Part shown: piece by piece, positions 26,766 to 35,821 of the stretch
How positions within the stretch are numbered: position 1 is the stretch's first letter
How the letters are laid out: every line of letters begins with the position of its first letter
DNA from: Acidobacteriota bacterium
Lineage (GTDB): Bacteria; Acidobacteriota; Thermoanaerobaculia; Gp7-AA8
Assembly (NCBI GenBank): GCA_021325515.1
Contig: JAJPHC010000046.1
Coordinates: 1 to 35,821 of the forward strand
DNA: 35,821 nt
Reading direction: 5' to 3'
The notes under the pieces: generated by a model
What the model was told of the DNA's origin: nothing
Seen by the model: only the letters and a program-made list of their open reading frames with translations
Databases searched by the model: none
Position numbers and translations under genes: made by a program

Positions 26766-27030
26766 CTCCACCGCAATCGCGCGATGCCCCTCGGCTTGCT
26801 CCAGCCCCTCGACATGAACGGCGAGCAGTAGGTGGAGTGCGGACGCCTCGTCCGCACATCGCGATTGTGCGGACGAGGCGTCCGCACTCCACTGCAATCG
26901 CGCGATGCCTCTCGGCGTGCTCCAGCCCCCTCGGCATGAATGGTGAGCAGTAGGTGGGGTGCGGACGTCTCGTCCGCACATTCGCGATTGTGCGGACGCC
27001 TCGTCCGCACTCCACTACAATCGCGCCATG
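26765..27030. repeat. Tandem array made of gene-junction copies and palindromes
   Basis: ACTCCAC followed by CAATCGCGC and ATG recurs at 26765, 26886 and 27009 (periods 121 and 123 bp). Each full unit runs: CAATCGCG, ATG, a segment like the peroxiredoxin start, a segment like the acetyltransferase 3' end (26808-26827 and 26930-26949), TAG, then a palindromic pair GTGCGGACG…CGTCCGCAC. The second unit differs from the first by point changes and one extra C. Unit 1 encodes a 15-codon frame (26784-26831, MPLGLLQPLDMNGEQ and TAG); unit 2 is shifted by the extra C. The array looks like head-to-tail duplication of the acetyltransferase-peroxiredoxin junction. Confidence 0.9.
27016..27021 (+). promoter_or_regulatory. 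-10 box TACAAT for the peroxiredoxin gene
   Basis: TACAAT lies 6 nt before the ATG at 27028, placing the transcription start on that ATG. It is the intact version of the motif that appears as CGCAAT and TGCAAT in the upstream repeat copies. Confidence 0.5.
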
Positions 27031-33339: not shown

Positions 33340-34421
33340 TCAGAAAGCAGACAGCAGAGGGCAAACAGCAGAAGAGCGTGGTGCAGCGGATCGTCAGGCT
33401 GGGCGTCTTCCTCTCCTGCGCCCTGCTGCCGGCCGTCTGCTGCCTGGCCGATATTTTTCCCAGGAGCGGCAGCGAGACCGGCGGCGACGTCATCACGATC
33501 AGCGGTCTCAATGCGTGCAGTCCATGCGTTGCGCCGTCGGTGCGCTTCGGCGGCGTTGCTTCGCAGAAAGTGTCCGTCGTCAGCAGCGGCACGCTGCAGG
33601 TCATCACGCCGCCGCACGTGCCGGGCGCGGTGAACATCACGATCGAGCCATCTTCGTTCGGAAGCGTCTCCGTCCCGTTCACCTACACGACGTCCGGCAC
33701 CCTTCTCAAGGACAACTTCGAGCGCGTCCTGATCCCGCTTTCTCTCGGCGCGAAGCAGTTTCCCGGGGCCTACTTCTCGCTCTGGGCGAGCGAGCTCTGG
33801 ATCTACAACAGCAATCCGTGGAACAGCGAGATTCTCTTCGGCAACCCCGATTCGAACGCGGGGTCGAGGCCGGTCATCGCCGCCGGCGAGACGCGCAACG
33901 CGAGTTACGTCGGCTCGTCGCAGCAGGCGTTCGGGCTGCTCGTCTGGGTCCAGCGGGGCTCGTCGCGCGGCATCAACTTCTCGCTGCAGATCCGCGACAT
34001 CTCGCGCGCGAAGATCCAGTCGGGAACGGAGATGCCGATCGTGCGCGAGTCGGAGTTCAAAGACACGATCGATCTGCTCAACGTCCCGATCGATCCCGGC
34101 ATCTCGCGCACTGCGCTGCGCATCTTCAACCTCGATGCGACGGGGCAGGTGCCGGTTCACATCGTGATCACGAGAGCGGGCGGGGGAGAAGTCCTCGTCG
34201 ATGACAGCAGCGTCCTGCTGCTCGTGGCCGGATTCGGCGGTACGGTGCAGACGTTCGCGCACTTCGTCTCGCTCGACGACCTCTTCCTGCGCTATCCGCA
34301 GCTCGCAGGCGCGGGGCCGGTCGAGATCTCGATCTCGACGGCGGGCAGCGAAAAGATCTGGGCCTTCGCCGCGGTGACGAACAACAACACACAATTGATC
34401 ACGACGGTGTTTCCGCATTGA
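33336..34421 (+). CDS. Secreted IPT/TIG-domain protein (second paralogue)
   Basis: A 361-residue tandem paralogue of the preceding gene. After an atypical hydrophilic start (MIRKQTAEGKQQKSVVQRIV) comes a hydrophobic segment LGVFLSCALLPAVCCLA acting as signal. The IPT/TIG domain (FPRSGSETGGDVITISG, VRFGGVASQKVS, QVITPPHVPG) and the shared C-terminal domain follow (DNFERVLIPLSL, FSLQIRDISR, MPIVRESEF, DLLNVPIDPGISRTALRIFNLDA, NNNTQLITTVFPH). The N-terminal codons CAGAAAGCAGACAGCAG look like a dispersed CAG/ACA-type repeat spliced onto the signal sequence. It overlaps the genes on both sides by 4 bp, so all three are translationally coupled. Confidence 0.85.
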   Translation: MIRKQTAEGKQQKSVVQRIVRLGVFLSCALLPAVCCLADIFPRSGSETGGDVITISGLNACSPCVAPSVRFGGVASQKVSVVSSGTLQVITPPHVPGAVNITIEPSSFGSVSVPFTYTTSGTLLKDNFERVLIPLSLGAKQFPGAYFSLWASELWIYNSNPWNSEILFGNPDSNAGSRPVIAAGETRNASYVGSSQQAFGLLVWVQRGSSRGINFSLQIRDISRAKIQSGTEMPIVRESEFKDTIDLLNVPIDPGISRTALRIFNLDATGQVPVHIVITRAGGGEVLVDDSSVLLLVAGFGGTVQTFAHFVSLDDLFLRYPQLAGAGPVEISISTAGSEKIWAFAAVTNNNTQLITTVFPH

Positions 34422-35581
34422 CGCCGTCCGATCCGCGCTTCGTCGTGCACGTCACCGCGGAGATGCTGCGGCATAGCCGCATCAACGAGACTTTGTTCTT
34501 CGGCGGGCAGATCTTCGACATCGCGGCGCTTTTTCTGATCCTGACGACCGGTTTGTCGAAGCGTCTGCGCGATGCCGCGCTTCGCATCACCCGGCGGCCG
34601 CTCGTCGCGGCGATGCTGTTCATCGCGCTGCTGATCTCGGTGATGTCGCTGCTCGACTTCCCGCTGCTGGTCTACGGCGACTTCATCGTGCCGCACGAAT
34701 TCGGTCTCACCGATCAGCGCTTCGGCCCATGGCTGATCGATGCAGTGAAGTCGTTCGCCGTGACCATCGCGATCATCTGTCCGCTCGGCGCATTCGCCTG
34801 GCGCGCGCTGGCGAGGTACAAGCGCTGGTGGCTCGTCCTCTGGGCGGCGTCGGTTCCCATTTCGCTGTTCCTCGTCTTCATCGCGCCGGTCGTCCTCGAT
34901 CCGCTCTTCAACGATTTCAAGCCGCTCCGCGATCGCGCGCTGGAGCACGATCTGCTCGCAGAGGCGCAGCGTGCAGGCATCGAGCGCGGCCGCGTTTTCG
35001 AGGTCGACAAGTCGAAGCAGACGCACACCATGAACGCGTACGTGACGGGCATCGGCGCCTCGAAGCGCATCGTGTTGTGGGATACGACGCTGGCCAAGCT
35101 CAATCACGACGAAGTGCTCGCCGTGATGGGGCACGAGATGGGCCACTACGTGCTGAACCATCTCTGGAAGGGGCTGGCGTTCAGCGCGGTCGCGACGCTG
35201 TTCGCATTCGCGCTCGCGCAGGCGCTCTATGAACGGACGGTCACGCGCTTCGGCGCGCGCGACGATCTCGCGATGATTCCCTGGATGCTCGTCATCGCCG
35301 CCGTGATCGTGTTCTTTTCGTCGCCGGTGTCGAGCGCCTTCTCGCGGCACGTCGAACATGAAGCGGACCGCTTCGGCCTCGAGCTCACGGGACTCCGCGA
35401 GCCGATGGCCACCTCATTCGTGAAATTCGCAGAGGACTCGAAAGTGAACCCCGCGCCGCCGGCGTTCATCGAGTGGTGGCATTACTCGCACCCCTCGACG
35501 AACAAGAGGATTGCATTTTGCCTCGAGGGGGATGGGACGAATGGGACCTATGGGACCTATGGGACCTATGGGAAGAAGTGA
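34418..35581 (+). CDS. M48 family metalloprotease (Ste24/CAAX-protease-like)
   Basis: A 387-residue integral membrane zinc protease. Several hydrophobic helices (about 33-160, 250-300) surround the catalytic site: HEMGH with H239 and H243, and the third ligand E313 in EHEADRFG. HTMNAYVTGIGASKRIVLWD is the usual strand before it. Bacterial Ste24 homologues take part in membrane-protein quality control. The TTG start overlaps the previous stop (TTGA). The last 15 residues (GTNGTYGTYGTYGKK) are encoded by the 10-bp repeat that begins the downstream array, so the natural C-terminus has been replaced or extended. Confidence 0.9.
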   Translation: MTPSDPRFVVHVTAEMLRHSRINETLFFGGQIFDIAALFLILTTGLSKRLRDAALRITRRPLVAAMLFIALLISVMSLLDFPLLVYGDFIVPHEFGLTDQRFGPWLIDAVKSFAVTIAIICPLGAFAWRALARYKRWWLVLWAASVPISLFLVFIAPVVLDPLFNDFKPLRDRALEHDLLAEAQRAGIERGRVFEVDKSKQTHTMNAYVTGIGASKRIVLWDTTLAKLNHDEVLAVMGHEMGHYVLNHLWKGLAFSAVATLFAFALAQALYERTVTRFGARDDLAMIPWMLVIAAVIVFFSSPVSSAFSRHVEHEADRFGLELTGLREPMATSFVKFAEDSKVNPAPPAFIEWWHYSHPSTNKRIAFCLEGDGTNGTYGTYGTYGKK

Positions 35582-35821
35582 GACCCGTTCGCTCCACCTA
35601 TAGGTCCCATCGAGAGAGTGAACTCTGCGCCAGGCTCGACGAACAAGGCTTGAGGGGATGGGACGAATGGGACCTATGGGACCTATGGGACCTATGGGAC
35701 CTATGGGAAGAAGTGAGACCCGTTCGCTCCACCTGTAGGTCCCATCTAGAAGGTGAACTCTGCGCCGGGCTCGACGAAGAAGCCTTGAGGGGATGGGACC
35801 TATGGGAGGAAGTGAGACCCG
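35524..35821. repeat. Nested tandem array at the end of the M48 gene
   Basis: A unit of about 128-135 bp starts at about 35524, 35652 and 35786, the last cut off by the window edge. Each contains a run of the 10-mer TGGGACCTAT (three copies in unit 1, four in unit 2, fewer in unit 3), then AAGTGAGACCCGTTCGCTCC, a TAGGTCCCAT that pairs with the 10-mer, and GTGAACTCTGCGCC with TCGACGAA. The last part matches the M48 gene (35444 region and 35495-35510), so each unit carries a shortened copy of the gene's 3' end, closing with TGA. Confidence 0.92.

Follow-up and report, generated by a model that had tools for sequence, protein, structure and literature searches.

The window, a stretch of 35,821 nucleotides that makes up the entire contig C20 of a 5.38-Mb, 63-contig genome, ends in a 135-bp tandem array that lies directly behind an M48 metallopeptidase gene and runs off the right border. 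About one third of the array unit is a spacer derived from the gene, and about two thirds is a dispersed hairpin unrelated to M48. The best reading, with a probability of roughly 0.7, is that a dispersed REP-like hairpin came to lie at the M48 stop codon and was then amplified there in tandem, giving the array; the M48 3' end would have been copied because the hairpin sits right behind the gene, and the array needs no function under this reading. The hairpin is a palindrome of high copy number, nearly restricted to this lineage and located near gene 3' ends. At several loci, it makes up the tandem unit together with roughly the last 50-90 bp of the adjacent gene.

The array behind the M48 gene

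The features of the right end of the window are as follows.

34,418-35,581, plus strand: M48 (STE24/CAAX-type) metallopeptidase gene, 387 codons from the predicted start (open reading frame; Pfam Peptidase_M48 2.5e-35, Peptidase_M48_N 3.4e-21)
35,437-35,458, plus strand: source block 1 in the M48 gene, CTCGAAAGTGAACCCCGCGCCG versus CTAGAAGGTGAACTCTGCGCCG of spacer B, 18/22 (alignment)
35,494-35,506, plus strand: source block 2 in the M48 gene, CTCGACGAACAAG, 13/13 in spacer A and 12/13 in spacer B (alignment)
35,520-35,528, plus strand: source block 3 in the M48 gene, GCCTCGAGG versus GCCTTGAGG of spacer B, 8/9 (alignment)
35,528-35,581, plus strand: hairpin-encoded M48 C-terminus (GDGTNGTYGTYGTYGKK and the stop), where relatives have a Y[KR]PW... 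tail (relatives' sequences)
35,528-35,610, no strand: hairpin element copy 1, with a 9-mer arm, a loop and the right arm CCTATAGGTCCCAT (borders by eye)
35,611-35,654, plus strand: spacer A, read as the M48 3' end in shortened form, VNSAPGSTNKA-stop (alignment, chance tests)
35,655-35,745, no strand: hairpin element copy 2, left arm grown to ~5 nonamers (borders by eye)
35,746-35,789, plus strand: spacer B, read as a second shortened version of the M48 3' end, VNSAPGSTKKP-stop (alignment, chance tests)
35,790-35,821, no strand: hairpin element copy 3, truncated where the contig stops (its right arm goes on in contig C19)

By their titles, the named proteins nearest to this M48 protein belong to Acidobacteria or Thermoanaerobaculia. 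The comparison of M48 ends covered 14 loci, 12 of them from same-family relatives; 9 of these 12 have the motif Y[KR]PW there. Comparison with these sequences indicates that the usual C-terminus has been replaced by the hairpin element which, in frame with M48, would have supplied the new C-terminus and the stop codon.

An initial annotation of this DNA described a unit that contains the 3' end of the M48 gene in shrunken form. This observation is confirmed: the letters that it quoted are present, and the three blocks listed above are collinear between gene and spacers. The homology to M48 reaches further left than was described, and some details have to be corrected: the spacers lack about 35 bp and 14 bp of the gene instead of about 30 bp, and the motif multiplied inside the unit has a period of 9 rather than 10 bp. 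At up to three mismatches, the spacer occurs nowhere else in this genome and is absent from 24 relatives (19 and five further ones, G016 included). Units without a neighbouring M48 gene, named by the same annotation as a finding that would count against it, do exist for the hairpin part and not for the spacer.

The resemblance between spacers and gene was scored with a gap model favouring collinear blocks, using fetched DNA of the same genome. Random 153-bp windows score at least as high as M48 in 13 of 40,000 cases for spacer A and 11 of 40,000 for spacer B, as do none of 105 other gene ends and none of 5,000 shuffles of triplets cut in another frame than that of M48; when codons are shuffled in frame, the counts are 1/5,000 for spacer A and 0/5,000 for spacer B. 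These values, and the conservation of the M48 reading frame in the spacers, argue against the spacer being unrelated DNA caught between hairpins and resembling M48 by chance. This reading is improbable, although several matches favour it: an unrelated site near 5.6 kb of the window, on the minus strand, beats M48 for spacer B (38.6 versus 29.9), one site in L199 ties with M48 for spacer A, at least three unrelated sites outscore M48 for each spacer under a plainer gap model, and M48 exceeds the best other gene end by a single point (26 versus 25) in the cognate test presented below. Since better unrelated matches exist, the M48-spacer similarity taken alone is moderate evidence, and the derivation from M48 is carried by adjacency and by the parallel loci, the same phenomenon being unmistakable at L028, L037, L182 and L189.

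The spacer might also be the former, lost C-terminal tail of M48 (ending GSTKKP-stop) joined to the VNxAP stretch, and thus be older than the present gene end. Indeed, spacer B finishes with K-K-P-stop, an ending of the form [KRH]P-stop occurs in several relatives, and the M48 protein of the relative G016 ends in KGSKS-stop. However, CTCGACGAACAAG of spacer A is identical at 13/13 positions to the present gene at another place, and such an origin is unlikely. An origin in the far convergent gene (antisense reading GFFVEPGAEFTF) was rejected: this gene, on contig C19, encodes a cNMP-binding protein, and its end ranks 40th of 108.

Contig C19 starts with the last 74 bases of the window, an exact overlap, so that the rightward extension suggested in the initial annotation could be followed: the array continues into C19 and stops at about base 120, ahead of the convergent cNMP-binding gene (C19:131-562, minus strand). 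The assembly contains two gene-tail copies. In G016, M48 and a convergent cNMP gene (110/144 identical to the C19 gene) have their stops 20 bases apart with no hairpin between them. This arrangement supports the C20-C19 join and provides an approximate empty site for the array.

A dispersed hairpin family close to gene 3' ends

Each hairpin has a short loop between arms that consist of repeats of the nonamer ATGGGACCT and of its reverse complement. A 15-mer pattern for the hairpin matches 508 genome sites, versus 1 for the control. With up to two mismatches, a 21-mer returns 360 sites in this genome, 36 in G016, 3 in G009 and 0 in the other 37 of the 40 genomes searched, and 6 of 396 genomes of the phylum, this one included, have any hairpin 21-mer site. 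The hairpins of G016 (L213-L225) are of the same nonamer type, with other loops and more variable nonamers. No shared element placement between G016 and this genome emerged from tblastn of the G016 element neighbours, in which one protein had two matches, at ~41% identity.

Among the matches listed, the family forms at least 69 clusters in 67 stretches, one of these clusters being the part of the M48 array on C19. As gene calling relied on a simple codon score, individual gene borders may be inexact. In the same set of listed matches, neighbours facing the hairpin with their 3' end (within 300 bp) lie at a median of 16 bp from the hairpin core, 70 of 80 being within 35 bp, while those facing it with their 5' end (within 300 bp) lie at a median of 97 bp, with 8 of 43 within 35 bp. 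Likewise, the 49 listed clusters with both neighbours within 200 bp divide into 21 convergent, 24 co-directional and 4 divergent ones. Stops beside the element fall inside TAGGAC in 12 of 76 cases; the excess of TAG stops there (26/76, versus 20/84 in the larger control) is not significant (p 0.16).

Long stable hairpins at gene ends (21 co-directional single elements have predicted folding energies of -50 to -97 kcal/mol) would suit a functional 3' element under selection, be it a terminator, an mRNA stabiliser or a regulatory RNA. Against this, the sense strand is the more stable one in just 9 of these 21 elements (p 0.30), which amounts to no sense bias, and Rfam reports no match in 35,000-35,821; we consider selection for such a function quite unlikely.

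Gene-tail copies at other loci and the proposed mechanism

The initial annotation also called for a search for the same process beside other genes. The cognate test covered 22 clusters of at least 100 bp (M48 included), of which 21 had a neighbour in the end set and 17 had a facing 3' end. Among about 108 ends, the top-ranked one is that of the cluster's own neighbour in 7 of the 21 tested clusters, in four of them by a wide margin; about 0.3 firsts are expected at random (35 own ends tested). The scores of the own versus the best other end are 109 versus 26 for L028, 102 versus 24.5 for L189, 79.5 versus 24 for L182 and 75 versus 24.5 for L037; L025 (28 versus 19) and L040 (20 versus 18) follow at a lower level. 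Judged by these alignments, gene-tail copies can be regarded as beyond doubt at L028, L189, L182 and L037, the case for probable copies at L025, L040 and M48 being weaker. No neighbour ranks first in the remaining 14 of the 21 clusters, 4 of which have no facing 3' end. An exact-seed search, in which the M48 side was left out, identified genuine copies at 4 of 79 3' sides and at none of 33 5' sides, a fifth match being the hairpin motif and not a gene copy.

At L028, a 60-bp copy of the gene end with one mismatch runs on into the hairpin. The array of L182 (bases 1270-1860) contains three diverged 3'-end copies with a common 6-bp deletion, which makes it a good site for studying array growth, and L037 contains two gene-end copies, the aligned one devoid of 27 bp. 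The internal deletions in the copies at M48, L037 and L182 point to shortening in that manner at these loci and not at L028.

Long palindromes stall replication and provoke rearrangement. In the proposed amplification, replication or repair would stall at the hairpin, the nascent strand would re-anneal at a short upstream match inside the gene, and the gene tail and hairpin would then be copied again; the non-coding copies would later decay through substitutions and small deletions, hence their shrunken look. The joints, placed by eye, connect the right arm or loop of the hairpin with gene sequence from ~50-110 bp upstream of the core. At L182, GTCCCATCGTC is present in both the gene and the hairpin arm, whereas few bases are shared at the joints elsewhere (C.TAGG in L028, about two to three in M48, by eye). 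As a long shared joint sequence is seen only in L182, we infer, rather than read directly, that hairpin-induced slippage or template switching explains the joints. Movement of the hairpin and gene tail as a unit by a transposase or a reverse transcriptase (RAYT-type single-strand transposition or mRNA 3'-end copying) is very unlikely: the genome has seven Y1_Tnp matches and the copies do span the coding 3' end through the hairpin, yet the M48 spacer, the only one used in the search for trans copies, is found at its own locus only, and the ATGGGACCT hairpin lies within about 1.5 kb of 0 of the 7 Y1_Tnp loci.

The GNAT array, known repeat systems and implications

A second array, behind a GNAT gene (window 26,766-27,030), combines a GCGGAC palindrome with a 24-bp copy of the 3' end of the GNAT gene (22/24 identical). 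Among 164 ends compared with the array unit, that of the GNAT gene scores highest (38 versus 29). The palindrome of this array, GCGGACGAGGCGTCCGC, is found at 245 genome sites versus 1 for the control, and it forms alternating arrays elsewhere in the genome; among 20 other GCGGAC arrays, L240 is the one that ranks its neighbour first, weakly (29.5 versus 27). The GNAT array is a cousin of the M48 array built on a different hairpin family. The initial annotation had suggested for the two arrays a shared mechanism of growth from gene 3' ends. The gene tails in the GNAT array and in 7 of the 21 ATGGGACCT clusters uphold this idea in part; growth from gene 3' ends as such is not supported, the constant part being a dispersed palindrome present in at least 68 other clusters and the palindromes of the two arrays being different. 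Because of this difference and of the rarity of gene ends in GCGGAC arrays, the common factor is that hairpin arrays duplicate with their flank. Gene ends would thus be caught in arrays where the hairpin sits very close to them.

On contig C54, the GCGGAC palindrome flanks a Y1-transposase gene on both sides (L228, G000:C54:66400-69700, Y1 domain 1516-1758), as REPs flank RAYT genes, and on contig C30 it lies on one side of a second one. The RAYT-like Y1-transposase of L228 is a likely mobiliser of the GCGGAC family.

The ATGGGACCT family is a high-copy palindrome mostly between genes and downstream of coding regions, with tandem clusters that include flank. In the available portion of Bertels and Rainey (2011, PMC3116915), REPIN clusters are tandem repeats including flanking sequences, and the present family resembles the REPINs described there as a hairpin-forming repeat that is mostly single and in places tandem with flanking sequence. 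Unlike these, its arms are made of 9-bp direct repeats, no RAYT adjoins it at the seven Y1_Tnp loci, and what accompanies it as flank is the 3' coding end of the neighbouring gene. According to the accessible text of Di Nocera (2013, PMC3733652), GTAG/CGTC REPs lie within 20 bp of gene 3' ends, form clusters reiterated with flanking DNA, and can supply a TAG stop and lie at ORF ends; CGTC REPs too are apparently without a dedicated transposase. The ATGGGACCT family is like them, as far as that text goes, in its location near 3' ends and its mostly convergent or unidirectional neighbours, and differs from them in its longer arms and near confinement to this lineage in the genomes searched. L022, the one element folded, forms an end-to-end fold with no unpaired GTAG or CGTC tag. 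The family is of the REP/REPIN kind, not found beside a RAYT gene and with unusually legible gene-tail copies. No occurrence of three repeat strings of these arrays was found in the literature searched.

Two other types of repeat were compared. Rickettsia palindromic elements are palindromic repeats read in frame as part of a protein. Unlike in these, it is the C-terminus that is affected here, and gene ends are duplicated in tandem. A CRISPR array was rejected: its near-identical repeats should be separated by spacers that are similar in size and differ in sequence, whereas the two spacers here are near-identical to each other and resemble the adjoining gene.

REP-type clusters are described, in the parts of the literature available, as repeats plus flanking DNA of variable length. 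This single genome has arrays of different age, whose copies range from 60 bp with a single mismatch to heavily decayed sequence; they indicate that this flank can be the coding end of the neighbouring gene, which makes joints and decay readable. It is a tentative suggestion, with the balance tilted against it, that in the lineage this young hairpin family repeatedly gives rise to duplicated coding ends and new C-termini: hairpins would insert at stop codons, duplicate the adjoining coding tail and, read in frame, substitute for the protein end, M48 having lost the tail retained by most relatives; if general, hairpin arrays would be a route for bacterial proteins to change their C-termini. Hairpins can leave decayed gene fragments next to a gene as by-products, such fragments then not being signs of selection, and caution is advisable with protein C-termini and contig breaks at hairpin-array sites. 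Contigs C12 and C34, and likewise C55 and C61, also end inside these hairpin arrays and can be paired by exact overlaps of 85 bp and 107 bp, respectively, so that the arrays evidently break this assembly. Lastly, positions 1-306, at the left end of the window, contain a 100-bp tandem repeat in 3.1 copies; with the array at the right end, both ends of contig C20 thus lie in repeats.
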